From the NCBI RefSeq assembly GCF_028389875.1, contig NC_084682.1:6582001-6646000 (forward strand): a DNA stretch of 64,000 nt. Reading direction: 5' to 3'. Below the pieces are notes generated by a model that did no database searches, had not been told where the DNA came from, and saw only the letters and a list, made by a program, of their open reading frames with translations. The position numbers and the translations under genes are program-made. Numbering within the stretch: the first letter of the stretch is position 1; each line of letters begins with the position of its first letter. The stretch is from Rhea pennata (Eukaryota; Chordata; Aves; Rheiformes; Rheidae). Below, piece after piece: positions 16,801-49,600 of the stretch.

Positions 16801-19800
16801 GTTTCCTGGGCAGGAACAGAGTCTCTGGAATACTGATTTTAAAACTCTTTAAGACAATTGCTTCCCCTATAATTATGAAACATTTTATCGTTTAGAAAAA
16901 TGCCTTTTTTTCTTGTATCAATGGATAGCAAACAATGTGCCAATCTAAATCTCAAACCTTCAAGAATTTTTGTTGTGCTGAAATACTGGAGTTATAAATT
17001 GACGAACAAGTCTACTGTTTCAAAAACTTTTGTAACATTTATAAAGTAGAAATAATTGCTTTCTTCTCTCTTCTCATAAATGCTAAATTAAAAATACAGC
17101 AAGAGAAAGAAGTTATAAAGAATGAATTCTAGTGCATGTTTTTAAATAGCTAGCTAAACAGAATGCTTAACTTTTATGAGATTAAAGCTTAAACAAAAAA
17201 TATAGGAAAGTGTGATGTTAACACCAAATCATTATACACTGAATTGCTATTATTGCTCCAAATTTTAGTTCAAAACACTATTAAGAAGGTCTTCTCCATC
17301 TAATATCCAGAAGTATTTTAGTGTATGGTATCACATCTTTAAAAATATCATTGCACTTCATGTTTTTTGAAAAACGGGTTGTATTGAAACAAAAATATTT
17401 TGTGGAAGGTTTTTTCTTCTTGTAACAGATGCTTCCGAAATGGGAAGGCCTTAGGCAAGACAGGTTTTCCTAGCTGCGGACTGTCCTTTTCTGAAGAGGC
17501 TGCCAGGCACGAGGCACGTGCCTATGAAGTGCAATATGAAATTCCAATAGCAATTCCCAAGTGGATTGCTCTGTTCTGATAAAAGGGTCCAACCCCCACC
17601 CCGGAGGGCTCTGGGCCCCAAATGCACCTTTGGACTGGTACCAAAAGCACCATTAAAATAAGCCGGGCTACTCAAGGTAGGAAAAAACAAGCAGTTGCCT
17701 AAGTGCAACCGTTAGAATTTAACGGTATCAAAATAGGTTAAATCCTGTCTTTCAACCTGCTCAAGCAACCCCGAGCCTGGCTGCATTTTGGGGTATACAA
17801 CAGCAGCGGGGCACTTCCCGTGGACTGCTACTCACGTTAAGACCAAAGTAATGCAAACTAGTATTTCAATGAATGTTTCTCATCCGTTATTGACTTTTGA
17901 ATTTGAAGCTCGGCACATTCAATGATAATAAAGCGCTCAGGCAAGGGTAGCGGGGCTGGCGCGTGGTCGCTCTCTCCCAGAAGCTGTAGGTTTTGGTTTT
18001 GCCTTTCCTGGCAGGCAACAAAAAAAAGGCAAGCAAGCAAGGGGAGCGGGCTGCACGCAGGGCCCCCCGGGCAGGAAGGGCAGGGGGGACGCCGACTGAG
18101 AGGAGGATTAAACCTAAGCTGCGGTGTCTTTTTCCCAAACAAAGAGATGCTTCAGCAACATTTGTACAGCAAACAGAAAACCTCAGCTTCTGGGGAGCAG
18201 GCCCAAGGCGAGGGGCCGGCGCCGCGCCGGCGCTCCAGGGCCCCCCGGCAGCGCCGCGTGCCGCAGCGATGCCCGCGGGGCAGCGAGCAGCACCCCGCGC
18301 CGCGGCGGGCCCCTACACGTGTACCCACCGCGCACTGCGGGCCTGTATACGTTCACCCCCCCATGCTGTCAGCAGGCCTGTACACACATATGCCCCCCAA
18401 CACACACACACTGCGGGCAGCCCCATATACATACACCCCCCCCCTCACACACACACACACCGCAGGCAGGCCCATATACATACACCCCCCCAACACACAC
18501 ACACACCCCGCAGGCAGCCCCATATACATACACCCCCCCCACACACACACACTGCAGGCAGGCCCATATACATACACCCCCCCACACACACACACACTGC
18601 GGGCAGCCCCATATACATACACCCCCCCCCCACACACACACTGCAGGCAGGCCCATATACATACACCCCCCCCCACACACACACACTGCGGGCAGCCCCA
18701 TATACATACACCCCCCCCCCACACACACACTGCAGGCAGGCCCATATACATACACCCCCCACACACACACACACACCCCGCAGGCAGCCCCATATACATA
18801 CACCCCCCCACACACACACACTGCAGGCAGGCCCATATACATACACCCCCCCACATACATACTGCAGGCAGCCCCATATACATACACCCCCCCCACACAC
18901 ACACACTGCAGGCAGGCCCATATACATACACCCCCCCACATACATACTGCAGGCAGCCCCATATACATACACCCCCCCACACACACACACACTGCAGGCA
19001 GCCCCATATACATATACCCCCCCAACACACACACACACTGCAGGCAGCCCCATATACATACACCCCCCCAACACACACACACACTGCAGGCAGCCCCATA
19101 TACATACACCCCCCCCACACACACACACACTGCGGGTAGCCCCATATACATACACCCCCCCAACACACACACACACTGCGGGCAGCCCCATATACATACA
19201 CCCCCCCCACACACACACACTGCAGGCAGCCCCATATACATACACCCCCCCAACACACACACACACTGCAGGCAGCCCCATATACATACACCCCCCCCAC
19301 ACACACACACACTGCGGGCAGCCCCATATACATACACCCCCCAACACACACACACACACTGCGGGCAGCCCCATATACATACACCCCCCCAACACACACA
19401 CACACTGCAGGCAGCCCCATATACATACACCCCCCCCACACACACACACTGCAGGCAGCCCCATATACATACACCCCCCCAACACACACACACACTGTGG
19501 GCAGCCCCATATACATACACCCCCCCAACACACACACACACTGTGGGCAGCCCCATATACATACACCCCCCCCCCACACACACACTGCGGGCAGCCCCCA
19601 TATACATACACCCCCCCAACACACACACACACTGCAGGCAGCCCCATATACATACACCCCCCCAACACACACACACACTGTGGGCAGCCCCATATACATA
19701 CACCCCCCCAACACACACACACACTGTGGGCAGCCCCATATACATACACCCCCCCCACACACACACACTGCGGGCAGCCCCCATATACATACACCCCCCC

Positions 19801-20252
19801 AACACACACACACACTGCAGGCAGCCCCATATACATACACCCCCCCAACACACACACACCGCAGGCAGGCCCATATACATACACCCCCCCCCACATACAT
19901 ACTGCAGGCAGCCCCATATACATATACCCCCCCCACACACACACACACTGCAGGCAGGCCCATATACATACACCCCCCCAACACACACACACACTGCGGG
20001 CAGCCCCATATACATACACCCCCCCCCACACACACACACTGCGGGCAGCCCCCATATACATACACCCCCCCAACACACACACACTGCAGGCAGCCCCATA
20101 TACATACACCCCCCCAAAACACACACACTCACACACACACTCTCTGCGGACAGCCCCATATACATACAGCACCATCCCCAGCACACCCGCGGCTCCCCGC
20201 GGCCGCCCCCCGCCCGGCCCCGCTCGCTCCCGCCGCCTCCTTACACCTCCAT
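7886..20252 (-). CDS. CRCP: CRCP / RPC9 (RNA polymerase III subunit), exons 1-4, partial
   Basis: CRCP (CGRP receptor component, RPC9) is the Rpb4-like subunit of RNA polymerase III, pairs with RPC8 in the stalk, and was also described as a CGRP-receptor partner. Four minus-strand coding exons are visible. Exon 1 is 20245-20252 (ATGGAGGT then GTAAGG). Exon 2 is 15384-15420 (KDANAALLSNFE). Exon 3 is 11762-11860 (VFQLLTDLKQQRKESGKNKQ, then SSGQQNLNTIMYE). Exon 4 is 7886-7980 (TLKYISKTPCRYQTPETVRD, then FLITMKGHKLT). All junctions are GT-AG and the phases join in one frame (MEV-KDAN...). The match to the human protein as remembered is close, though exon 4 is more divergent. The C-terminal half is missing, probably beyond the left edge. 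Exon 1 codes for fewer than three residues and would be missed by ORF-based methods. Confidence 0.93.
11160..11620. other. GC-richer island inside CRCP intron 2, origin unknown
   Basis: About 460 bp between CRCP exons 4 and 3 are clearly less AT-rich than their surroundings and lack the A/T runs seen on both sides. No open frame, terminal repeat or known family was recognised. It could be an old repeat or a conserved non-coding element. Strictly it lies in the intron between exons 3 and 4. Confidence 0.25.
18300..20165. repeat. Minisatellite of about 40 units of about 46 bp, in CRCP intron 1
   Basis: Each unit has the order GCAGGCAGCCCC, ATATACATACAC, a C-tract of 6-9, a (CA)n run of 4-7 repeats, then CTG. 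By hand I count about 39 regular units and about three degenerate ones at the left edge (18310-18410). Sub-types differ as GCAGGCAGGCCC versus GCAGGCAGCCCC, and by CTGCAG, CTGCGG or CTGTGG at the join, which suggests local expansion of unit blocks. The array ends about 80 bp from CRCP exon 1, so it is transcribed in CRCP pre-mRNA, where each unit reads as a UG-run and a G-tract. Frames of 270-800 codons across it on both strands arise only because the unit lacks stop codons. Confidence 0.97.
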
Positions 20253-20479: not shown

Positions 20480-20550
20480 TGCATTGGCCGGGAATCGAAC
20501 CCGGGCCTCCCGCGTGGCAGGCGAGAATTCTACCACTGAACCACCAATGC
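20480..20550 (-). tRNA. tRNA-Gly (anticodon GCC)
   Basis: Read on the minus strand, the 71-nt gene starts GCATTGGTGG and ends CCGGCCAATGC plus discriminator A. The 7-bp acceptor stem GCATTGG/CCAATGC pairs perfectly. The A box (TGGTTCAGTGG), anticodon loop CTGCCAC with GCC anticodon, and B box (GGTTCGATTCC) are all intact, and it matches the standard vertebrate tRNA-Gly-GCC from memory. There is no intron. It has the same orientation as CRCP and ends about 230 bp before the CRCP start codon. Confidence 0.97.
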
Positions 20551-26397: not shown

Positions 26398-29300
26398 ATG
26401 GCAACCGAGGTAAGGGTGAACTTTGTTTCTCCTACTGTACTGGTTTATAGGGTGCGCTGACAAATGCAAGCTGAACTTAGTTATAATCCCAGCAGTGCAA
26501 CTTACCATATTTATTAGAGTACTTTTTTTCCACCTGATTCATTTTCCTGGGGTTTTAAATAGAGCAGGAAGCAACAATAATTTTTGCTGCAATATTTCTG
26601 ATCACCTACCTCTGATTCTGGTGAAAACGTGCAATAGTTAAGATATTCTTAAGTGCTTGTTCCTTGCCCAAGCACTTACTCTCTAGCACTGGCTTTTAAT
26701 TTCCCATCCCCAGTGCTATTCTTCCCTGAGGACTATCTTTGCACGGAGAATCTGCAAAATATTTCCAACTCCGATTTTCAGTTAATATTGATAAAGCTGC
26801 CTTAAAAAGATCGTAAACATCCTGTGCCTACACTCTTACCTTGCAGGCTTTCATTTGTTGTCCCCTCAGGCACAATGCTTCAACAGGAATTGGCAGAGAT
26901 GTGGACACAGTATCTAGCAAAAGAGTTTCTAAAGTTATTCAACAGTGCTCTGTCTAACTGATAAAAGCCTGGCATAGACTAGCTTGTCTTGGGCAGCTTT
27001 CCGCTGTCCATGGTATCACAATGAAGGGTTTGAGAGTCCTAACGATACCTTGTTTGAAATCCTTTTTGGAAATCCTGTTCCCACCTCTTCAACTGCTTAC
27101 AAAAGGTCCAAAAGTACATCTGCCTTTCTGGTCAGTGCTACTGCACTGAAAAAACATGCATGAGCATGGCCTCTGTTTTACTTTGATAAAGATTACATTG
27201 AGCATAAGATATTTTTTAGAGAATACATAAATAAACACTTTTAACTTGCCTTTAAACTTCATTATTTTCAGGGGGAAAAACACCTGGGAGGAAGATTAAC
27301 TGGAAGTATGGATCCCATCTTGGAGATTCTGAACTCCTCCATTGCCATTGACCAGAGACTGTCTGAAGTTGATATCCAGGCAAGCGTGGCTTATGCCAAA
27401 GCCTTGGAGAAGGCTGGCATCCTCACTAAACCTGAGCTGGAGAAGATCCTGAGTGGCCTGGAAAAGGTATTTATGTCCTTGGCAAACTGTCCCATCTGCT
27501 CTGGCTTAGGTACAATTGCTGCACTAGCCCTGCAACCAATGGCAGCCTACCTGACAGCATGTCTGGGCATCTTCCCCGATTTGCTTTTCTAAAAGGCATT
27601 CTTAAGATATCCTCATGTCCTATTCCTTAAAGCAAGACATTTCCTGAAGCTGTTCCCTGAGAGGGAGGGATGCTGCCCTAACCGATGGGCCAGCCTGAGA
27701 GCCCCAGGTATATTCCTTCTCTATACTCTCAGAGATATCCTGCGAAGGGCACTGATGCTCAGATTCCCTCTCACTAATGGCACCAGAGCCAGGCACTAGC
27801 ATGTGAACCACCTGACAAGGCAGGCATGAGACCCTGAGGCCACAGAGAGCATTTCTGAAGCCCTGGTGAAGACACTATGACCTTCCCTTCTGCCCTCTTC
27901 ACACTGAACATCCCCTTGCAATTCTTTCCCTATGAATTAGGAATGTTCTTTCTGAGCTGGCGCTTGTGCTCCTTTTGTGACTGGCAGTCTGAGTTAGTTA
28001 TAGTCAATGCATAGTATTGTATAGGGGTGAAGAGCAGTCAGCAGCTAAGCACTTTTCTAAATATCCATTGTTGCTGCTCACCCACCATGGACAACTGTGA
28101 GACTATACCATGTTTGTGTAGGAAACTCTGCATGGGCAATACTAAAGCGATGCCTGACGTCTCAGCTCACTTGCTCATTGCAATGCTTATGCCCCCCTAT
28201 AGCCATAACGTTGCAGGATTACCACAGGTACAGAGAGCACAGGGGAATCCCACCAGTGGCACTAGAGCATAACTGCATAGAGCAGGCAGCCGGCTGCGGC
28301 CTGAAAGAACAGCAATGCCAGAGCCTGCGTGAGACTCGGGCTTAGGTTCCCGCTGCCATGGCAGAAGTTGCTATTTGTAACAGATACCTACAACCCCCAT
28401 GTGCAGTAGGGAAACAGCAGTGGCTGATGGGTGTTTCTGCTGCTGTTTTCTTGGCAGATCTCTGAGGAGTGGTCTAAAGGAGTCTTTGTGGTGAACAAAA
28501 GCGATGAGGATATCCACACTGCCAACGAGCGCAGACTGAAGGTTTGGGCCCTCTAACCTTTCCTTCCTGCTACGCTGTACTTAGCTCTGCCTGATGTTAA
28601 GCGCACGCCCCTCTGTCCCATGGTAAAACAGCTCAGCACCTTGTACCCCAGGGAAGCTAGAAAGCGTCTACAAGTCCCCTTCTGTGGAAGAGACGCTCTA
28701 CAAGCGTAGAACCCACCCTTGTCCTGCCCCAGAAGAGATCCCACGGCTACTTACAGGATCCCAGAGCTCAGACCTTCCAGGCAGGCTGGGTCTGCTCTCC
28801 CTGGGAGCCTCGCGCTTACTGTTCAGAGACACTGACAGCAATCCTCTTCTGGTCCTCAGGAGCTGATTGGAGATATTGCAGGAAAGCTGCACACTGGAAG
28901 AAGCAGGAACGATCAGGTAGGTATACAACCACCAGATTTCTCCACCTCTGCACCTCCTCTTCCTCAGTTTCAGGCAACCACTAATCAGAATGGGCTTTGG
29001 TCCTCTTCCCGGAGAGCAAGACATAGGGACTTCCGCTTGTCATAGTGACCAAAGACGCAGCTGATATGAGGGGAGATGTCCCCTCCCATCAGGCTCTCTG
29101 CTGAACACTTTGGTCACAAGGGATGTCACATTCCACTCTGGCTGACCTTGGCCAATCTCGTCCAGGTTGTGACCGACCTGAAGCTATTCATGAAGAACTC
29201 CATCTCTGTGCTGTCCACTCACCTGCTGCAGCTCATTAAGACGCTGGTGGAACGTGCTGCCATGTAAGCCCTTCGCCAAGGCCACAGCCTCAGCCCTTCT

Positions 29301-32300
29301 AGGGGCAGGAGACTTGCAGGCTTCCTCTTTGACTGGCGCAGATCGGGGCAGCAACAAGATCTCTCTCTCCTTTCACCTGCAGAGAAATTGATGTTATCCT
29401 CCCTGGCTACACTCATCTGCAGAAAGCTCAGCCCATCAGATGGAGCCAGTTCTTGCTCAGGTAACCGCCCCTCATTCTCGGCAGCAGCAAGCCTCCTCCA
29501 CCCCCAGGGCCCCGCTCAGCCTCAGCCTACAAGGGCATCACCCTCCGACGGGGGTGACACACCAAAGCCAGCCTTGCAAGCTGGAACTGTCACTGCCTGT
29601 GCTCAATACACCTTGGTCCTGAGCCACAGTCAGATGTTTGGGGAGGAAAGTGTGACATTTGCTGACTTCTGATGCTTCATCTCTCCTGTCCTTTCCTAGC
29701 CATGCTGTTGCACTGACCCGTGACTCTGAGCGCCTGGGAGAGCTGAAGAAGAGGATCAGTGTCTTGCCCTTGGGAAGGTAAGGTCTACATTCTGCCCAGT
29801 CCTTAGGCCTCACCTCGATCTGCAAAATGCTTAAGGGGCGGCCTCTTGCCAGCCCTGAACCTCTGGCATTTGTATGCAACATACGGTGCAGACCTCGAGG
29901 GGGCAACCCTTGCTAGTCTCTCAAGAGACAGGTGCCATCTCAAGACTGATGTACTCTCTAGGGACAGGCTGTTCTTCTCCCTTCTCCTTCAAAACACGAA
30001 CTAAAAGGTTTTCATCAAGCAAACCCACTTCTGGGAGTGAGGGACTTCTGGTTCAAAGTATAGAGTCTGCTCAACCCCTGGGCTCACAGTAGGGAGCAGT
30101 GTGATGCCACAGTGAACCATGCAAGTCTTAGGATAGGTTCTTCCCTGCTTCGTAGAGCTCAGCTTAGGTTGGACTGTGCAGGATGTCACATATGACTTCT
30201 GTTGCTTTCTTCCTTGGCAGCGGTGCTCTGGCTGGCAACCCACTGGATATTGACAGAGAGATGCTGCGCAGCGGTAAGTGTCTCCTGATGACTGAACGGC
30301 AGAGGTCTAACCCTAGTATCTCAGAGGGAGGGAGGCACGGACACCTTGTCCTGACGCTAGATGGACATGTACTGCAGCATGCCCCTTGACGCAGGGATGG
30401 AGGGTAATAAATGCAGCTCCCAGTGACTCTGCAAGGCCTTGTCTTGGAGCCAAAGCCCTTGTTTCCTACAACTCTTTGTTGCAAGGAGACAGACGATGCT
30501 TGCAAGGTGGGAGCAGAGACACAACCACTTGTGTTGCACCTCAGCAGTCTGGGGCAAGTAACAAAGGCCCCAGCTCAGCACAACATTCCAGCAGGCCTGT
30601 GTCGCTCTTACTTCTCAAGGACTTCCCTGCGTGCTAGCACAATCTGCTGCATTCAAGCTCCAGCTGCTCCAGGGCTGAGCTCCTCTGTCCATCTCTTTCC
30701 TTACAGAGCTGGACTTTGCTTCTATCAGCCTGAACAGCATGGATGCTGTCAGCGAGAGAGACTTTGTGGGTGAGCACAGCTCTATCATTTCTTCCCTTCC
30801 TCATTTCATAACGGTCCTTCCAAGACCTTCCGTCTTAGCCTGATTTAACAGGGGGACTGAAATGCCTCGCTAGGAAGAAAATATACAGTCTCTCTGCAAG
30901 CATCTAAGCTCCACTCAGAGCTCCTTGCATTGTCAGCAAACACAGGCATTTATCACCTCCTGATTTCCCTCCTTCTCTGCAGTGGAACTCCTCTTTGTTG
31001 CCACCCTGCTGATGACCCACCTGAGCAGGCTGGCTGAAGATCTCATCATCTACAGCACCAGCGAGTTTGGCTTCCTGACCCTCTCCGATGCCTTCATGTA
31101 GGTTTCTGGGTTCCCAGGCACAGAGCTTTTCCCTCTCTCTCTTCTCCTCAGTTATCCTCACCTGAAAGATAGAGATGACAGTGATGGGGCTCCCTGTTGC
31201 CTAAGGCTGACACTAGAATTAATACCCTAGGGCCTTTAAAGGTTGCCTTTACGTAAAGGTATCCTTAAAGGTCGCCATTCCTCTTCAATGACTGATTTTT
31301 ACTGATTCCAGTAACTTGCTGAAATCTCCCCCAGCAATTGCTGGAGAATCGGGCTGTACCACAGTAAGCAGAGAGAACTTCCTCCTCTGCTGGGAATTCC
31401 CGCCAAAGCCTTTTCTCGAATACCCACGATTTGCAAACGCAACACCCTTCCTGTTCTTCCGGGTGGCACAACCAAACCCTCCCGCTCTCTAAGGCCACAC
31501 CGTCCTCCTCAGAAACACTCTTAGTCTTGCCTGTTGATACCACCTATAGAGGTGTTTGAGGGGAAGCCTCCTTTTTTCTCTCTCTTTGGGACCCAAGTAA
31601 GGTCAGGACTGTATGAGAGCTCCACATAAGACTGAAAATGAAGGCTCAGCTCTGGGAAACACCTTTCTTTTCAGCGCTAGCAGCAGCCTGATGCCCCAGA
31701 AGAAGAACCCGAATAGCCTGGAACTGATCCGCAGCAAGACTGGACGAGTGTTTGGACGGGTAAGCCTACTAAAGAAAGAAGTAGAATGAGGGAAAGGCTC
31801 AGATTGAGGCTAGTACAGTTTCAATGGAGAATGAGATCAGATTCCTTCCCTCCTACCAGAATCTGAATGAGCAAGGAGATTCCTTAGGTCTGTCTTTCCA
31901 CAGAGTCTCAGCACTTAGAGTAAATCTTAGTGGCTTCTGAGCTCAAATAGTCTTACACTAGGTTCCTGAGGATTCATTGAGGTACTCGTTAAAAGTGGAT
32001 TAGAATATATTAACCACAGAAATGGCAAAATTTACACTTACCTTTATATGGCACTTTAAGATTATCATACAGGTCTTACATATACTGTGACTAGACGGTT
32101 GGGAGATTAGATGCCAGAAAAAATAGCCTGAGCCACAGGACATCTTAAGTGGTGTCTCACAAGGACCCATCACAGGCTGGTAGGGCAGTCAAACATGCAC
32201 AGATGACCAGAGCACATGCTTAAGAAACAATGTACTGCCTCAAGCAAGGCTTCAAGCTGCTTTGGCCCCTTTCTGGAGACAATCTACCCTTCAAAAAGCA

Positions 32301-34428
32301 GTCATGGAAAACTGCACTTCTCTCATCCCCTCACCTTAGCAGGATCCTGTAGGTGAGAAATTATCACCCTTCATCTTCAAGGCTCTGTGTAAAGAAATGT
32401 GTCCTGTCTTGGCTCTGAATCTCTGCTAGGGCAACATGCATCTCTTCCTACGGCTAAGTGTTTTACCTGTTCTTCCCCACAGTGTGCCTCTATTCTCATG
32501 ATTCTCAAAGGACTTCCAAGCACCTACAACAAGGATCTGCAGGTAAAACAAATATTTGCTCTTGCTCCATTTCTCTGAAATGACACAACTGTCTTCTGAT
32601 CTGCAAGCCTTAGTTCTTGCCTTAGCTTTCCATGCGCAGGGCCTGCTGGGGTGCAGGACACTAAAAAGGAGGAGCAGGTTGCACTGCATGCCCCAGTTCA
32701 CCCTGCAGCCCTCAGGGGAGCCCCTCAGATGTCAGTGCCTGCCCTGCTGGCCATGCTGCTCAGGCTGCTGGGCGTTTTGGCTGCTTCAGGTTGACTTACT
32801 GCAACTCTATCCATGTTATCGCACAGGAGGACAAGGAGGCTGTCTTTGATGTGGTGGATACCCTGACTGCTGTGCTCCAGATTGCCACTGGAGTCATTTC
32901 GACCCTCCAGGTAAGCCTTGACCTCTCATTGCTGAGCACACTCTGCTCCTGCTTGCATCCACAAGGATGCTGTTCCTGATGGACTGACACAGGAAAGTGA
33001 GCTCTAGCCTGGCCCTAAAATGAAAATTCCACCATCTTGCACTCATCTAGGGGCTCACTGCAGCCCCTTTGCCAGCTGCTCAGATCCACCATGCTCTGAG
33101 GTCACGTGGGGCAGAGGGCCTTGCAGAGCCAGGTCCCTCCTAGATGAAATGTCCTCACTGTTACAGCCAGTGTGTCCCCAAGCAGGAGCTGATAGTGATG
33201 CCTCTCTGTGACCCTCCTCTCTGCAGATCAACAAGGAGAATATGGAGAAAGCTTTGACCCCTGAAATGCTGTCCACTGACCTGGCTCTCTACTTGGTTCG
33301 TAAAGGAGTGAGTATCAGAGGGAGACTCTGAGCTGTGATTTCTGTAGACCCACAACAGTGCTCAGCGAGGGCCTGAGATGAGGCCTTCTGTTCTGTCCCC
33401 AGGTGAGGATCAGTCTGGGTGAACAAACACGAGAGCTGGAAACCCATTCTTTACATGTATCCCAAGTAGTGGAACTGCTGCCGGGTGGACTTGATAGTAA
33501 TTTACAGGTGGAGTTCTACCTCTTAATGCCTCCCCTTTTGACACCCCAGAAAACCCGGAGTCAGACTACATTGCCTTAACTCAAAAGCAACCAAACCAAC
33601 CAAGCAAAAAAAGACAGCACATCCATCTCTGCGTCTGAGTCAGCAATCCAGCTGCCTGATCATTGACTGTTGCCTTTGTTTCTTGTTGCAGTTGCCATTC
33701 AGACAAGCCCATGTTGCCTCTGGGAAGGCTATCCACCTTGCTGAGACTAAGGGCATCACCATCAATAATCTCAGCCTGGAAGACCTGAAGAGCATCAGGT
33801 CTGTATTATTTGTCTTAACTCCCTTCAAAAGGTAGGTATCAACCTGCCTCACTAAGGGCTCCCTTGTGGTGCCCTTCAGGGAACAGCTTGGGCAGGGCAG
33901 AATCCTCCATGCCTGAATATCAGGAGTTGACAAGGAGACAACACCACTACCACTCAGAGCAAGTAGGGCAGGGGCAGCAAGTAGTGGGTGTTGGGGTGGG
34001 GGGGACTGGAAGAGACTCATGCCTTAACCTGCAGCACCAGCCCTCCAGAGGAGTCCAGCTCCTTATTTCATTGCTTTGCCTGAAGCAAATCCTCTGCTCT
34101 GTCACCAGCTCCCACTGCCAGGCACTAGCAGTGCGGAACCAGGACCACACAAGGCCCTTCCCCTGGGAAGAAGGCTCAGGCTCCTCTCCCTCTCCCTCCC
34201 TGCAGGCAGTGAGCAGCTGAAGCCAGCAAACGGCACCCATCGCTCTCTACTCACTCCTCTTCTCTTTGCCTCCCCAGCCCCCTGTTTGGCAGCGACGTGT
34301 CCCAGGTCTTCAGCTTCGTCAACAGCGTGGAGCAGTACACGGCCGCGGGAGGCACTGCCAAGAGCAGCGTGACTGCCCAGATTGAGCAGCTGAGGGAGCT
34401 GCTGAAGAAGCTGAAGGAACAAGCTTAG
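26398..34428 (+). CDS. ASL1: ASL1, delta-1-crystallin type argininosuccinate lyase copy
   Basis: Member of the fumarase/argininosuccinate lyase family, recruited in birds as lens delta-crystallin; the enzyme is a cytosolic homotetramer. Coding exons 2-17: 26398-26409, 27272-27466, 28458-28541, 28860-28916, 29166-29263, 29383-29460, 29700-29777, 30221-30273, 30707-30769, 30983-31097, 31675-31759, 32483-32542, 32827-32910, 33227-33307, 33692-33798, 34278-34428. All junctions are GT-AG; the total is 1401 nt, 466 residues, uninterrupted. The start ATG in exon 2 gives MATE then [11 protein letters not shown]. Catalytic His160 ([10 protein letters not shown]) and Ser281 are kept. The normally invariant LWGGRF is HLGGRL, and the loop [13 protein letters not shown] is [13 protein letters not shown], breaking the family signature at its Gly. 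It is therefore probably a structural crystallin with poor or no lyase activity (inference). Donors of exons 4 (GTTTGG) and 16 (GTCTGT) are weak but shared with ASL2. Confidence 0.95.
28061..28092 (+). promoter_or_regulatory. DC5-like SOX2/PAX6 lens enhancer in ASL1 intron 3
   Basis: CATTGTTG (28066-28073, SOX2 site) is followed by CTGCTCACCCACCATGG, matching in order and spacing the chicken delta-1-crystallin DC5 core as I remember it (CATTGTTG then TTGCTCACCTACCATGG, bound by SOX2 and PAX6). It also lies in intron 3, as in chicken. Differences from the remembered chicken sequence are small, including CACCC for CACCT. It would drive lens expression of the gene. Confidence 0.8.
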
Positions 34429-34485
34429 AGTGTGGGGAGATATCCCGTGTATGCAGCTTTGTGCTTATCGCACTGATCTGGAGTT

Positions 34486-34491
34486 AATAAA
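34486..34491 (+). terminator. ASL1 polyadenylation signal AATAAA
   Basis: AATAAA lies 58 bp after the stop codon and is followed within about 20-30 bp by a GT-rich stretch (GTGGTGTATTGTAG). This gives a very short 3' UTR, as expected for delta-crystallin mRNA. Confidence 0.9.
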
Positions 34492-35844
34492 CACAGTGGT
34501 GTATTGTAGTTCACTGAAACTCCTGTCTTGCGTGTTCCTTCTCGGGGCAGGACTGAGCTGGGCCTCTTCAGCCCTCAGGAGGCTGCGGAAGGGTTCCCTG
34601 GTGCAAAATGCTTAGGGCCCTCTCCTCCCTGGCAGGGGAGCTCTTTTATGGGATGTCAAGCTCTACGGGGGCTGGTAGTCACAGAGCAGCAAGAGTGTCT
34701 GTCCACACCAACAGATCTGGAAATGTGTCTCCGGGGGGTGGATGCAGCACGGACCTGGACCCAGCAGTGCCAGAGCAGGCCGCACAGGGCAGCCTGAGGG
34801 ACGTTTGTGTGCGTGCACAAAGCGAGACTCCTGGGACTGCACCTGCCACACATGCCACAGCTCCAGCTGTCACTGCCCGGGTTCTGCTTCCCACGCTGCC
34901 AGTGCGCTTGCCTTCTGGGAAGAGCGATCAAGTGGCCAGAAGAAGTCTCCTCACTGAATTTGCTTAGTCTGAGGCAGGAGGCGGCCAGCAGGTGATCCCA
35001 GACCATCACAAAACCACCCATGGCTCTGGCTTACACAAAGCACAGGGGTTGTGTGGTCTCTGGCCAAGCTCCTTCCTCTGGGTGACTCAGGCTTGCTCCA
35101 CCTCCAAGCTAGCTGAGGGCAGAGCACTTGAAAAGAAGCCTGGAATGGCTGGCTGCCTCTAACAAATCATTTACCATCTTCCCTCCTCTCCTTACAAAAA
35201 ATAAAATCAGAACAAAGACCAGAGAAAGCCTTACTTGACAAATGAAGGGTCATAAACCTGCTATCTTTCTTAAGGAGAAAATAACTGATTACACAATGCT
35301 TGAAACATCACCTCTCCCTTTCTGCTCTGCTTTCATTTCTGGATGAAATGCAAGTGCTACTTGATTCAAAGGCAGAAAAGAATCTGTTGTCTATAGGGAA
35401 GATGGGGCCATTAGACCATTAGCCATTAGACCAGCTTGGCCTTAGCACCATAGCACTGTGGTGCCACTTTCCATTGTTTCTTTTTTGTCACAGTGTTATG
35501 AAGCTGGTGATTTTTTCAGCATCCTCCCCTCCATGCTGAAGCAGTAACATGCTATTGACTCTGACCACCACAAGACTGTATCACAGGTAGAGAATGGCAG
35601 TAACATAGGCATTGCCTCACTGTGTTTAGGTTAGAGGCTCTATCACAAACAGTGCAAAATGTAAATGTCCTGCCAGTAGTGAAGTGCCTCACAGACATAA
35701 AGTGCCTTTGCCCTACCTCTGTCACATTTGTGCTTTAGGTATGCAGAAGCACCAGCAACAGAAACTTCCCGTTCTTCAACAATTTGTCCTATCCTCAGCC
35801 TCCCCTCATTCTAGCTCTAAACCAGATCCATTCTTTGCCTCAGT

Positions 35845-36055
35845 TTTGTATGTTCCACACAGCCAATCTTGAGCCCATATCACAGACACCATGAAATAAA
35901 AACATTCTGAGCATAAATCTGGTACTTACTGTTTTGCCAACATCCCAGTAATGTCAAAACCCAGAATAAGGACAATGATGCTCCTAAACAGTAAACAAGA
36001 CAAGAGGAGCAGTAAAAATGTGGTACTTCAGAATAGAAAGGAACCTGGTGACAAA
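35845..36055 (+). repeat. Diverged 5'-flank copy of the ASL duplication (right copy)
   Basis: Loose, gapped match to 24750-25030 with the same word order. It lies about 1.2-1.4 kb before the ASL2 start codon, close to the position of its partner before ASL1. The extra distance is partly taken up by the CR1 that follows only here. Confidence 0.65.
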
Positions 36056-36179
36056 TGGTTCAAACCTGATGTAGGCATCCTGATGCCCTGTTGGCTTCAG
36101 ATCTGGAAGTCTAAAGGGAAATAGGGTCATCACGTTAGGAAAATGGTCATGAGGTGAACTCTTCAGACTATTCTCAGCA

Positions 36180-36475
36180 TTGTCCACTGGCAGGACAAGA
36201 GGCAATGGGCCCAAATATAAACACAGGAAATTTGGTCTGAACGTAAGAAAACACTATTTCAGTGTGAGGGTAGTTGAACACTGAACAGGTTGCCCAGAGA
36301 GGTTGTGGAGTCTCCATTCTTGGAGATACTGAAAACCCAACTAGATTTGGTCCACAGCAACTTGCTCTAGCTGACCATACTTGAGCGGGGGAGGGGGGGG
36401 GACACGGACGGGACGACCAGACAGTCTCAGGGTACCTTCCAATTTGATCTATTCTGTGATTCTATGGTAAATCTT
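36180..36475 (+). mobile_element. CR1 LINE, truncated 3' end
   Basis: The segment reads as the 3' end of a chicken-repeat-1 non-LTR retrotransposon: GACAAGAGGCAATGGGCCCA, then ACAGGTTGCCCAGAGAGG, TGGAGTCTCCATTCTTGGAG, and the ending ATTCTGTGATTCTATGG. It is 5'-truncated, as most CR1 copies are, and has no coding capacity. It is absent from the matching place before ASL1, so it probably inserted after the ASL duplication. Confidence 0.92.
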
Positions 36476-36714
36476 TTAGAGGTGCTGCATTAGGATAGCT
36501 AACTATGAAACCAGATAAAAGAATCTGAGCCTTGCTCTGGATTAATCTTGAAGGTAGCACCCTGGAAATTCAGCTGGGAAAGATACTTGCTCATTCACTC
36601 CTCCTGTGTCCACTCTGCTATAGAAACCAGCATGCTCTAATCATATAAAGATCCTACTGCACCTTAAACTTCATCCTCAACTCAGAAAGGGATGAGTAGT
36701 AGGACTGAGAGAAG

Positions 36715-36775
36715 AACATGGAAAAGACACCTGGACTAGGTCCTTCCAGTCTGAATTATCCTTCGATCCTATGAG
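36715..36775 (+). mobile_element. Short CR1 remnant
   Basis: ACTAGGTCCTTCCAG and ATCCTTCGATCCTATGA resemble the last bases of a CR1 copy (GACTAGATGATCTC..TTCCA..ATTCTATGA). Only the extreme 3' end remains. Confidence 0.5.
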
Positions 36776-36939
36776 AACAGGGCTAAGTAAGGAGAAGAAA
36801 AACCCAAATGAGAACAAAAAAAATCAGGTATGTTTCCCACACTTCCTCAAAGGCCTTGACATTGAGCAGGGAAAATACGCTATAGTTGGACAGCTCCTAA
36901 GACAAGGCAGAAAACCGGTGCCGGTGCTGCAGAATGGCA

Positions 36940-37212
36940 CGGGGGACGGAGCAGGGCTGGCCCTGGGGACACCCCGCCCCGGTGGGGCGGGACAAGCTGC
37001 CCGCCCCAGTGTGAGGCATGCAAAAGCCGGGGTGGCGGGGTCGGGAGTAGGAAGCGACCGGGGCTGGGCAGGCAGCGGAGGTTTCTGTCCTGCAGCCCTC
37101 GGGCTGGGGCTCTCGATCTCTGGAGAGAAGAGCAGCTCACGGGGGGCCGGGGTAGCAGGCGGGGACCCCGGGGCTGTGCCGGGGGACAGAGCTGAGCCTT
37201 GCTGTTCCACAG
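36940..37212 (+). promoter_or_regulatory. ASL2 promoter and presumed 5' UTR region
   Basis: Homologous to the ASL1 promoter: the paired GC boxes are at 36972-36991 and GCAAAAGCC stands where ASL1 has GTAAAAGCC, so the TATA-like element is weaker. A stretch equivalent to ASL1 26147-26193, which carries the exon 1 splice donor, is absent. The acceptor before exon 2 (CCACAG at 37207-37212) is intact. ASL2 must therefore use another donor or start. Confidence 0.6.
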
Positions 37213-37263
37213 GTTGCACGAGTTGTGGAGACTGCTACGCACGCAAGCAAAACGTCGGCTGAA

Positions 37264-44893
<7,630 letters not shown>

Positions 44894-44950
44894 AGTGTGG
44901 GGAGATATCCCATGTATGCAGCTTTGTGCTTATCGCACTGATCTGGAGTT

Positions 44951-44956
44951 AATAAA
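44951..44956 (+). terminator. ASL2 polyadenylation signal AATAAA
   Basis: AATAAA lies 58 bp after the stop codon in the same context as in ASL1, with the same GT-rich stretch downstream. Confidence 0.9.
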
Positions 44957-45696
44957 CACAGTGGTGTATTGTAGTTCACTGAAACTCCTGTCTTGCGTGT
45001 TCCTTCGCGGGGCAGGACGGAGCTGGGCCTCTTCAGCCCTCAGGAGGCTGCGGAAGGGTTCCCTGGTGCAAAATGCTTAGGGCCTTCTCCTTCCTGGCAG
45101 GGGAGCTCTTTTATGGGATGTCAAGCTCTACGGGGGCTGGTAGTCACAGAGCAACAAGAGTGTCTGTCCACACCAACAGATCTGGAAATGTGTCTCCGGG
45201 GGGTGGATGCAGCACGGACCTGGACCCAGCAGTGCCAGAGCAGGCCGCACAGGGCAGCCTGAGGGACGTTTGTGTGCGTGCACAAAGCGAGACTCCTGGG
45301 ACTGCACCTGCCACACATGCCACAGCTCCAGCTGTCACTGCCCGGGTTCTGCTTCCCACGCTGCCAGTGCGCTTGCCTTCTGGGAAGAGCGATCAAGTGG
45401 CCAGAAGAAGTCTCCTCACTGAATTTGCTTAGTCTGAGGCAGGAGGCGGCCAGCAGGTGATCCCAGACCATCACAAAACCACCCATGGCTCTGGCTTACA
45501 CAAAGCACAGGGGTTGTGTGGTCTCTGGCCAAGCTCCTTCCTCTGGGTGACTCAGGCTTGCTCCACCTCCAAGCTAGCTGAGGGCAGAGCACTTGAAAAG
45601 AAGCCTGGAATGGCTGGCTGCCTCTAACAAATCATTTACCATCTTCCCTCCTCTCCTTACAAAAAATAAAATCAGAACAAAGACCAGAGAAAGCCT

Positions 45697-46441
45697 TATC
45701 AGAAGAATGAGTTCTCTCTTGCTTACTGCAATGTTTCTCTGTTTTAGCACTTGTATCACTGTCCAGATAAGTTTAGCTATGGCAGGGAAATCACTTTTGT
45801 TTGAATAGGTGGGGGGGGCAGATGACACCATTACCGAACACCAACACGGTGGGGAGAAGGACTCTCCTCATCTGCAACTCATGACTGTTTTGCTCCCTGT
45901 CACAAACCTTCTGTTTATACCTTTAGCTGCTGCTCAGCGCCTCTGTAGGCCTCAGCGAATTAGATGTCCTCTTCCTCTCAGCAGCAAGGGTCCCGCATCT
46001 GGGAGGGAGCGCTACGTAGCGCCGCGCGCTGCCAGTGGAAGGAAGGCGGTCTCCGCTGATCATCACATCCTCATCTCCTAATTAAGGAGTAGTTCATAAT
46101 CACTGTTACTTCCCACCCATCCCTCCTACTGATATTCTGTCACGAAGTCTTTCATATTTAGTCTTCTGCAATAAATTGAGCTCTTTAACTGAGTCAGAAA
46201 CCTAAGCGGTGACGGCTGCTCATCGCATTTGTGGAGGCTGCTGGTTGTTCAGCCAGAGAAACACAGGCTGCAAGTAAACGGGCTGCAACACTAAAATCCG
46301 TCCGAGGACACTTCCTCCCTCGCCCTCGTGGGTCGCATGACACACTCCTCTGTCCCTACCCCATTCCTGACATGCCGTTTAAGTAGGAAACCGAAGTCCA
46401 CACGGTTTCGCAGCGCAGAGTCGGCCCCGCCTCCCTGCCCC
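45697..46441. other. ASL2-GUSB spacer with upstream part of GUSB promoter
   Basis: No gene was found. CpG-containing sequence appears from about 46000 (GCGCTACGTAGCGCCGCGCG near 46007) and rises towards GUSB. An open frame runs in from 46328 into the GUSB frame, but its extra residues do not resemble a protein. Confidence 0.5.
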
Positions 46442-46636
46442 GGCGCGGCTCTGCCCACAGCCAAGATGGCGGCGGGAGTGGTCGCTCCTCCCGCCGGCGC
46501 GGCTCTGCCCACAGCCAAGATGGCGGCGGGAGTGGTCGCTCCTCCCGCCGGCGCGGCTCTGCCCACAGCCAAGATGGCGGCGGGAGTGGTCGCTCCTCCC
46601 GCCGGCGCGGCTCTGCCCACAGCCAACATGGCGGCG
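46442..46636 (+). repeat. 54-bp tandem repeat with YY1-like motifs at the GUSB start
   Basis: Three near-perfect 54-bp units (46442-46495, 46496-46549, 46550-46603) and a partial fourth that runs into the GUSB start codon. Each full unit carries CCAAGATGGCGGC, the YY1 consensus; the fourth reads CCAACATGGCGGC. ATGs at 46466, 46520, 46574 and 46628 are all in one frame with no stop between them, because the unit is 18 codons. YY1 sites of this type often set transcription starts in CpG promoters. Confidence 0.93.
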
Positions 46637-49600
46637 GCGGCGGGCGGCCGGCGCTGCCCGCGGAGCCGGGGAGGCGGCGCGCCGCCGGCCCTGCTGGCGC
46701 TGGCGCTGGCGCTGGCGGCGGCGGCGGGGCGGGCGGCGGCGGGCGGCATGCTCTACCCGCGGGAGACGCCGTCCCGCGAGCTGAAGGAGCTCGGCGGCCT
46801 CTGGAGCTTCCGCGCCGACTTCTCGGCGGGGAGGGCGGCCGGCTTCGCGCAGCGCTGGTACCGCCAGCCGCTGCGGCAGGTAGGGGCGGCGGCGGCGGCG
46901 GCGGCAGGGTGGGGAGATCCGCGGCGCTGCGGCGGTCCGGGCGGGCCAGAGACCCTCAGGAGCTGCGGCGGCAGCGGCGGTCCGCGACGCTCCGCGCGGG
47001 GCCGGGAGGCAGGGAGGGAGGCCGGGCCTCGGAGAGCGCCCGTGGGTTAGACGCTGCTCGGCTCAGCCCGTTACCTGAAGGCAAGGTGCGCTGCCAGTGC
47101 GTCGCTTCTCTTCTAGCTGCTGGGCCGATTTTGCCGCGTTGTGGAAGGTGACAAGAGCGCCAAGATACAAAGCTGCTAGAAAATCTCTGGAAATAGATGT
47201 GAGAGCAGACAGAGGAGAGGGATCCTAGACCTGCCCCCGCCAAAGGGAGGGCCGAGAAGCGTAAGCTCAACCTGCTTTAGACATCGGGGAATCTCCTCAA
47301 AGGAGACCCGTGTTATGGGCATCCAGTATTAGATGCTAGAAAATCCACTCCACCATTTTTTGCTTTTAGGATTTTCTGATGCCTAATAAAGGAGCTGAAT
47401 TCTCCCCGCGCTGTCAGTACAGTTCAGTGCTGAGTCAGCCACGCGCGTGATGCTCATCCCGGGACACCCAGACTTTCCTAGTTCCACTGTTCACGGAAAG
47501 ATTTGCTTAAGAAAGGGGAAGTGTTCCAGATGCAAACTGCTGCAGTGTTCGTTTGTGGAACATCACAAGCACTGCAGGTGCTAAAAATTAACGGCTAGAT
47601 TTTGCAATAGCATGGGGTGACCAAAATGTTGTAATAAATTACAATGCTGCTGGCATATAATCCTATTAAAAAAGTAACTGAATTGACACTGTTGGAAAGC
47701 AGTGAAAAAAAAAAAAGGGGGGCAGGAAATCTATGCCGCTTTCAGGGAGTAAGGAAACCAGAGCCATCCTGTGTAAATAGATGCACGCAGCCTCCACAGA
47801 CCATATGGGGGGATCTGGCCCAGAATATCCCCAGACTCTTGCCACCATTCTCCGACAACTATGACTGACAAGCAGCACCCCATGCCAGTGAACTGACACA
47901 GCAACACGAGCATTACACTCTAAGCAGCTAGAGCTGTGCAAGAGAAACTACATTTTGTGAGTAGTTTCAGACTGAACAATGACCTGGCCACGTTTTTTTC
48001 CAGTTCTCAAGTTCTGCAGCACCAAAGCTATTAACTAAAGCATTTCCTTATTGTAAACCAGGAGAGGGAAAAAAGATATTAGCAGCTTCATCTGATAGGA
48101 GAAAGCATATTCTCAGCCCAGGCCTGGTATTATATAGGACCTGTGACAGAATATGCCAGTTTGTGACCAGGTATTTCTAGGGACTTCCAGTTTGCAAAGG
48201 ACACTTTGATTTGTAAGGCTGAGTCAAGTGGAAGGAGATATGTCCAGAAGTGTAGGTGGGGCAGCCAAGTCAGTAAAACTTCTGTCAAACTTAACATCTT
48301 AAAATTACCTGTTTCCTCCCTTTCTGTGCAATTCTCATCAGACTGGTCCTGTGATCGACATGCCAGTGCCTGCCAGCTTCAACGATATCACCCAAGACCC
48401 AAACTTGGAGAACTACATTGGCTGGGTTTGGTATGAGAAGGAGGTGCTGCTTCCTCGCCGTTGGCTTCAGGATGATCTCAACACCAGAGTGGTGCTCCGC
48501 TTTGGTAGTGCCCATTACTACTCCATTGTGGTAGGTTGCACAAGCAGTAGCGCAGGCATTTCCAGCATCATACCGCACCGAAGTCTATCCCATGGCCTGT
48601 TCAGCAAACATGGCTTTGCTCATGTTTTTGTATCAGGTTGCTGTTTTCTTAACTCTCAGCCATTTTCCTCCTGGCCACTGCCAGCTGCAGCTGCCTGGAA
48701 AGGAGGAATGGACCTTGTCCTGAAGTGAAGAGAATTTGGGACAAGAGCTTGACCATGTTTCCTGGGTCTCTCTTCTGTGATATTCCAGTATCAGGACTAG
48801 TAACTAAAACATTTTGTTGTTACAGGCCTGGAGGGAACAAGGTACTGACCTGCCCAAAACACTTAGTTTCTCACAGTGATGCTTGTGTGTGACCCAGGCA
48901 TAGCTCCCAGTAAAGGACGGGCTGCTGGATTGAGCCCTCAGAATTAAGAGTCTTGAACATGGGTGGCTCAGTGTAACTGGGAATCAAAACTGCCCTTTGC
49001 TGTGTTCCTTTGCTTCTCCCTGCTACGCTTTCTGTGGAAACCTAACCTTTGTGCGTGGACTCACAGGCCTCTTCTCTTGCAGTGGGTCAACGGAGTCCAA
49101 GTTGCAGAGCACGAAGGAGGCCACCTCCCTTTCGAAGCAGATATAAGCAGTGTTGTCCAGGGCAGCCCAGGGATTCCCTGCCGCATCACTGTTGCGATCA
49201 ACAACACTCTGACACCTCATACTCTGCCTCCGGGGTCGATTCAGTACATGAATGACATGTCAAAGTGAGTCGCTAGAATGCGGTACTGCTGATGTTATCG
49301 AAGGGATGGCAGAACAGCAATTTATTCAGCTGCTATTTCTTAAGAGCCTCTGAGTAATTTTCAAAAGCATGGGTTGTATTTATGACTATGTTCATCAGTC
49401 AAACAGGGAGGAGTTTAAGCTTCAATGTTAAGAGAAATCTACACTGAATTACAGCATGTTTTATACATGGGGAACTGAAATTAGGTGATTTACCAAGCTG
49501 AGTCAGTGGCAGATTAAGACACTTGAATTCAACAGGAACTGCAGCTATCTGCTACTCTGAAGGATCCATCAGACCTATTCAGTATGTTAGATGTTCATTA

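Follow-up and report, generated by a model that had tools for sequence, protein, structure and literature searches.

Delta-crystallin is a textbook case of gene sharing. The delta1-delta2 pair of chicken and duck reportedly shows extreme intron similarity together with gene conversion, an observation said to go back to Nickerson in 1986 and to Wistow and Piatigorsky in 1990. In chicken, as described in the part of PMC9012887 available to us, the two genes stand in tandem, an inactive crystallin and an active enzyme that are 91% identical, and an enhancer lies in the third intron (PMC9012887 and PMC4330359, available portions). A further source, PMC3375281, names crystallin in its reference list only.

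Exon 5 of the opsin genes and exon 7 of RHCE/RHD carry divergence peaks that are kept by selection against conversion, according to the accessible portions of PMC3924837 and PMC3966226, and those same portions describe, for the primate red/green opsins and for RHCE/RHD, within-species homogenisation with segments that cluster by paralogue, as at the locus described here. Islands of divergence likewise persist under gene conversion between the Tigriopus GOT1 paralogues (abstract of PMC3728101).

The pair reported here lies in a stretch of 64,000 nucleotides of Rhea pennata DNA, here called the window. It has the tandem order of the chicken and duck delta1-delta2 (ASL1/ASL2) genes, but it is a palaeognath pair, it is more homogenised than theirs (19 residue differences), and its delta1 has an altered 280s loop (SSS for GSS, N293) together with H91 as in the enzyme.

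Results

The window holds two intact genes of the ASL family in tandem on the + strand, the arrangement of a delta-crystallin/ASL pair. The upstream gene, copy A, runs from coding start to stop at 26398-34428, and the downstream gene, copy B, at 37264-44893; each has 16 coding exons and an open frame, with AG just before each of exons 3-17 and GT just after each of exons 2-16 in both copies. Copy B matches the duck delta2-crystallin structures across all 468 residues, so that its numbering is that of duck delta2. The closest proteins among the matches listed are bird ASL and delta1-crystallin, with an ostrich ASL2 nearest to B (95% identity) and an emu 'ASL-like isoform X1', a delta1, nearest to A (88% identity). 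The enzyme signature KLWGGRF is retained in B, whereas A has KHLGGRL. From their residues we infer that A is the gene of delta1-crystallin type and B that of enzyme type (ASL2/delta2).

The coding start of A in exon 2 (26398..26409, + strand, MATE) presumably ends at a donor of its own, GAG/GTAAGG; a donor at the position used in B would extend this exon by two codons, to 26415. The exon-2 donors differ between the copies (26398-26415 versus 37264-37281), GAG/GTAAGG being present in A and lost in B, which must splice two codons further on, and duck delta2 likewise has two extra residues. A DC5-like SOX2/PAX6 enhancer core, recognised by a pattern that we take to describe it, was found in intron 3 of A (28066-28090, + strand), with an identical match in B (39177-39201). 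The third intron is also the position of the DC5 enhancer in the available part of PMC4330359. Because the core is identical in the two copies, it cannot by itself account for unequal lens levels. Elsewhere in the window, a CA-rich minisatellite of 38.5 copies of a 46-base unit occupies 18393-20129, and a tRNA on the - strand (20480-20550) is the sole Rfam match above the gathering score within the 64,000 nt. A 54-base tandem unit (3.7 copies, 46440-46637) lies near the start of a downstream + strand gene, which, read by eye, we take to be beta-glucuronidase (GUSB).

In four long tracts, which take in introns as well as exons, A and B share 99.4-99.9% of their positions. In copy A (+ strand), tract 1 covers the rest of exon 3 and the start of intron 3 (27323..27728; 2 of 408 positions differ over 27321-27729), tract 2 covers introns 3 to 11 with exons 4 to 11 (27978..31327; 22 of 3,353 differ, counted from 27975), tract 3 lies at 32375..33423 (1 of 1,050 differs from 32374), and tract 4 covers the rest of exon 16, exon 17 and the 3' flank (33732..35232; 8 of 1,498 differ); their counterparts in B, also on the + strand, are 38657-39073, 39088-42438, 42988-44036 and 44194-45697, the tract limits being those of a mismatch-only HMM, which splits short stretches within blocks, and the block limits having been set by hand from the lists of differences. 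The deserts between the tracts show 40-58% mismatch, a figure obtained by aligning globally what is mostly unalignable sequence. Three larger gaps in the gene bodies (235, about 520 and 151 bases present only in A) all lie at unhomogenised stretches; the first of them is in intron 3 (27740..27974, + strand, absent from B). The differences between the copies are clustered non-randomly: the longest identical run spans 838 columns, and the longest that arose in 2,000 permutations reached 399. A preliminary description of this DNA had given about 20 differences over some 3.3 kb at a constant offset of 11,111 bp (28040-31320). The count was sound, with 21 differences within 28059-31320; the offset holds from 28059 on and is 11,110 just before that point, owing to a one-base indel.

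The coding sequences differ at 38 positions, two of them within the two exon-2 codons at the likely donor shift. The differences number 14 in exon 3, 11 in exon 12, five in exon 11, four in exon 16, two in exon 2 and one each in exons 6 and 10; exons 4, 5, 7, 8, 9, 13, 14, 15 and 17 have none. At the protein level there are 19 residue differences if A uses its own exon-2 donor and 20 with the donor at the position of B, and on the former assumption 16 of the 19 fall, as had been described, in three patches: the head of exon 3 (8), exon 12 (5) and exon 11 (3). At synonymous sites the copies differ by 0.386 in the exon-3 head, against 0.275 for exon 12, 0.074 for exon 11 and 0.004 for the remaining coding sequence, and the high values mark the exon-3 head and exon 12 as old DNA, not merely as fast-changing residues. 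Nonsynonymous difference (pN) is below synonymous difference (pS) in every patch, so that accelerated residue change is not supported.

Exon 3 lies at 27272-27466 in A and at 38618-38812 in B (+ strand). Its first 51 nt, codons 7-23 (27272..27322 in A; 38618..38668 in B, where the KLWGGRF motif is present), differ at 14 nt and at 8 of 17 residues, exactly as counted before, and upstream of codon 24 the copies are diverged back into the 5' flank. Intron 2 is mostly unalignable between A and B, with one similar stretch near 27085-27175. The exon-3 head had been pictured as a patch embedded in homogenised DNA; it is instead the 3' edge of the unhomogenised 5' region. In the protein, the first 25 residues form an N-terminal arm that protrudes into the adjacent subunit and is needed for double-dimer assembly, and deletion of this arm destabilises the assembly (PMC4701392, available part). 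Codons 7-23 fall within the arm as it is delimited in that part of PMC4701392, which rules out the exon-3 head as a substrate-binding patch.

A further unhomogenised block comprises the end of intron 11, exon 12 and most of intron 12 (31328..32374 in A, 42439-42987 in B, + strand; 1,047 versus 549 bases). Exon 12 itself (31675..31759 in A, codons 281-308 with the 280s loop; 42805..42889 in B, + strand) differs at 11 of 85 nt and at five residues, again as first counted; A has SSS for GSS in the signature and N for D293, the signature of B is intact, and the GSS-containing motif is presumably the one named for the fumarase superfamily. Introns 11 and 12 are mostly unalignable between the copies, and in the one piece around exon 12 that can be aligned, differences fall in 30 of the 177 ungapped columns, namely in 19 of the 92 that are intronic and 11 of the 85 that belong to the exon. 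The introns of the block are more diverged than the exon, which rules out exon 12 as an exon-limited divergence peak and undoes the picture of it as a spared island.

In the superfamily, the active-site region c3 corresponds to goose residues 280-294 and includes the active-site residue E294, according to the accessible part of PMC2779060. This region is residues 282-296 in A and B, which differ from each other at 282 and 293, and, with c3 so delimited in that part of PMC2779060, exon 12 is the only spared segment that overlaps it. Exon 7, which holds T161 and the catalytic H162, and exon 4, which holds H91, are homogenised, with no differences; the role of residue 91 has been studied in duck, to judge from a paper title in a reference list. 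The spared patches had been said to be exactly those forming the substrate site, a statement that does not survive the finding of an assembly arm in the exon-3 head and of homogenised exons around H162 and H91.

Nor are the spared places limited to two, as had been supposed; others are an island in exon 11, the 235-base gap in intron 3, and intron 15 with the head of exon 16. At the exon-11 island (30983..31100 in A, + strand), 6 of 118 positions differ and codons 244, 279 and 280 change residue, with 0 of 144 positions differing before it, 0 of 227 after it and no indel near; the binomial P of 8.7e-5 is post hoc, the island having been chosen after inspection.

The intron-15 block of copy A (33424..33731, + strand) takes in a cassette exon from its 22nd base, the rest of intron 15 and the exon-16 head, and has four coding differences, with codons 393 and 397 changed. 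The exon, 15b (33403..33507, + strand), is a predicted delta1-type cassette exon, missed by the preliminary description, of 105 nt and 35 residues, with AG/GT borders and its first 21 nt inside tract 3. Its remnant in B (44016..44072, + strand) has an in-frame stop at the tenth codon, and the remainder is lost in the 151-base gap. In proteins of emu, duck, chicken, penguin, sandgrouse and frogmouth, 35 additional residues stand at the junction of exons 15 and 16, and the cassette of A is identical to them at 28 to 34 of 35; all six have L or M at residue 11, and three (emu, duck and chicken) are called isoform X1 by their source. A search with the cassette region alone gave eight candidates, among which were five of the six cassette proteins (that of frogmouth was not returned) and no protein of W type, that is, with W at residue 11. 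The cassette motif was likewise found in 0 of 65 W-type rows among the matches listed. A partial search of the open-access literature found no report of the cassette exon, and we do not claim that it is unpublished; the exon and the reading of the arm are the parts of this case that may be new.

Every coding patch but exon 11 touches an intron desert or a gap, and lost homology might therefore explain the pattern by itself: strand exchange would be blocked by indels and by the old divergence of introns 2, 11-12 and 15, and the adjoining exon parts would escape, while ordinary purifying selection held the enzyme residues of B and A drifted, with no selection against conversion. The exon-3 head, exon 12 and the exon-16 head adjoin low-homology introns, so that conversion would be blocked there without selection. 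That exon 12 has diverged less than those parts of its flanking introns that can be aligned, that the exon-16 head, which is no active-site patch, is likewise spared, and that pN is below pS in every patch all agree with such a cause. The exon-11 island, with its undiverged neighbours and no gap nearby, does not, and gaps need not keep their surroundings diverged, the tract edges lying 11 and 3 bases from the intron-3 gap. Moreover, codons 7-23 of A are identical to those of emu delta1, and this, like the near-identity of the cassette across birds, looks like constraint on delta1 and not drift. We regard lost homology as the whole explanation as possible but doubtful.

For comparison with relatives, two protein searches (best 120 rows each) gave a union of 123 rows. 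At codons 10, 11, 15, 16, 19, 244, 300 and 302, A has the residue found in the delta1 of emu and of three tinamous, and B has that of the ASL2 of ostrich and three tinamous. Codon 293 is I in the emu and tinamou delta1s, N in A and D in the ASL2s; at codons 279-282 the residues of A are common to emu only, at codon 23 all eight relatives have the L of A, and at codons 8 and 18 sharing is mixed. When the 16 patch differences are set against three turtles and a crocodile, the residue of B is ancestral in 4 of 4 at 12 of them and in 3 of 4 at two more; at codon 300 the outgroup residue is in A, and codon 18 has no clear ancestral state.

Quartets and trees of these proteins show the pair to be, by comparison of sequences, a mosaic of species-wise and paralogue-wise history. 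With the Nothoprocta pair, 8 sites group by paralogue (the eight codons first listed above), 27 by species and none in the third pattern; the ratio of paralogue-grouping to species-grouping sites is 8:3 inside codons 7-23 and 244-308 and 0:24 outside (p = 7e-6), the three exceptions inside being 272, 273 and 306. With Crypturellus, the identical 8 sites stand against 32 that group by species. A control without the window rows, emu delta1 and ostrich ASL2 with Nothoprocta, groups by paralogue at the same eight codons and at 293, and by lineage at 18 other sites; with Crypturellus, these sites and 240 group by paralogue against 22 by lineage, and one site is of the third kind. In trees of 23 of 125 rows, chosen by us, codons 7-23 and 244-308 place A with emu and two tinamou delta1s (98/96) and reject A+B (p-AU 0.0005), and the rest places A with B (99/98) and rejects the paralogue clade (p-AU 6.6e-6); the groups and patch columns were set after the A/B differences were known, and the p-AU values apply to post hoc groups. 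In palaeognath proteins, the clustering is the one foreseen in the preliminary description, the patches going by paralogue and the rest joining A with B.

Against ten neognath pairs the window pair never shows more than 2 paralogue-grouping sites, and with 6 of the 10 it shows 0; species-grouping sites number 22 to 61, and there is at most one of the third kind. Paralogue clustering of the spared segments thus holds among palaeognaths but is weak against neognaths, because neognath delta1 has residues of its own in the exon-3 head. A bird-wide map was made from 10 pairs in 45 quartets; of the pairs in the preceding comparisons, those of Crypturellus, Corvus, Orthonyx and Chaetops were dropped, while a parrot pair was brought in and duck ASL2 swapped for the 1hy1 chain; the penguin, parrot and Crypturellus pairs combine two species each. 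The ratio of paralogue-grouping to species-grouping sites in this map is 50:41 in the exon-3 head, 49:59 in exon 15 (residues 370 and 373), 5:18 in exon 12, 3:14 in exon 5 and 0.09 or less in all remaining segments. The delta1 and ASL2 labels come largely from residue 11, so that grouping at that residue is circular, and a potoo 'delta1' with W11 was assigned arbitrarily. In the potoo pair the exon-3 heads, with W11 in both rows, differ at 1 of 17 residues, so the sparing is not universal. In neognaths, paralogue grouping accounts for 49 of the 108 two-way sites of exon 15 (codons 370 and 373), which adjoins the cassette exon; this exon is fully homogenised in the window, and the neognath pattern there differs from that of the window.

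Outside the spared segments, proteins cluster by species in the quartets, the trees and the bird-wide map. This bears on whether the near-identity of A and B could be an artefact of assembly or consensus, produced by mixed short reads of two copies, since short reads poorly resolve copies that share more than 99% of their sequence across 1-3 kb. Such mixing presupposes near-identity, however, both copies have open frames, and pairs of tinamou, pigeon, owl and others, from independent genomes, also group species-wise outside the patches. We consider an artefact very improbable.

Split by residue 11, 118 bird rows comprise 53 with L or M (delta1-type) and 65 with W, one row without residue 11 and six reptiles being excluded. 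Among the matches listed, 14 of the 53 delta1-type rows have Q91 whereas 0 of the 65 W-type rows do, and D293 is retained in 43 of 53 and 65 of 65. These counts are non-independent, since a species may be present with several isoforms and some gene models are broken. At codon 240 the delta1s of emu and of three tinamous read S, but A and B both read F, and here, near codon 244 with its retained delta1 residue, B probably overwrote A; codon 240, the sole informative site outside the patches, is the one codon from which the direction of conversion is read, and back-mutation there is possible.

The preliminary description had ascribed the patches to selection alone, which would remove conversions that restore or destroy the difference between enzyme and crystallin, the patches being its targets. 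The patch residues are indeed old and, in emu, tinamous and ostrich alike, specific to the paralogue, the exon-11 island and the lack of the delta1-type Q91 from W-type rows point the same way, and comparable divergence peaks have been accepted for the opsins and RHCE/RHD in the available parts of PMC3924837 and PMC3966226. In the opsin case, however, flanking introns have low divergence, whereas in the window the introns that flank exon 12, and the one upstream of exon 3, are diverged as much as the patches or more. A peak of the opsin kind, confined to an exon between introns of low divergence, is seen only at the exon-11 island, and not at the exon-3 head or exon 12. With the exon-3 head an assembly arm, and the active-site exons 4 and 7 homogenised in A, we think selection unlikely to be the sole cause.

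Discussion

Gene conversion between the two copies, with spared segments that keep paralogue identity, is supported by the tracts, the quartets and the conflicting trees, and so this part of the first reading stands. Its claim of selection fares unevenly, being favoured at the exon-11 island and by the residues absent from the enzyme copy and unneeded for most of the pattern. We lean, a little beyond even chances, towards a mixture in which conversion is limited by lost intron homology and selection is added on top.

On this mixed account, the tandem pair of delta1-crystallin (A) and argininosuccinate lyase/delta2 (B) would undergo concerted evolution through recurrent ectopic conversion along the gene bodies. 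Since conversion depends on homology, the deserts of introns 2, 11-12 and 15 would shield the adjacent coding stretches: conversion would halt where intron homology is gone, in the 5' region and intron 2, in introns 11-12 and in intron 15, and the adjoining coding stretches would thereby escape it. Selection would then purge conversions that bring inactivating delta1 residues into B, and in A would preserve the arm of delta1, the residues of exon 11 and the cassette exon. Selection is the better account of the exon-11 island and of the way arm and cassette are constrained in delta1; the freedom of the enzyme copy from inactivating residues could reflect selection against conversion from A to B or simply purifying selection. 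Which of lost homology and lost conversion is cause and which effect cannot be separated from one genome.

The spared stretches might also be read as a paralogue-specific assembly code and not as an active site, the arm, the 280s loop and the cassette sorting subunits into tetramers. Conversion might then be free to overwrite everything else in delta1, even residues of the active site, because the arm would sort dead from live subunits. We hold this to be improbable.

A map of the coding segments that escape conversion indicates where the difference between enzyme and crystallin may lie, and the present map points, besides the active site, to the assembly arm and to a little-noticed cassette exon. 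Palaeognath genomes offer replicate lineages for telling lost homology from selection.
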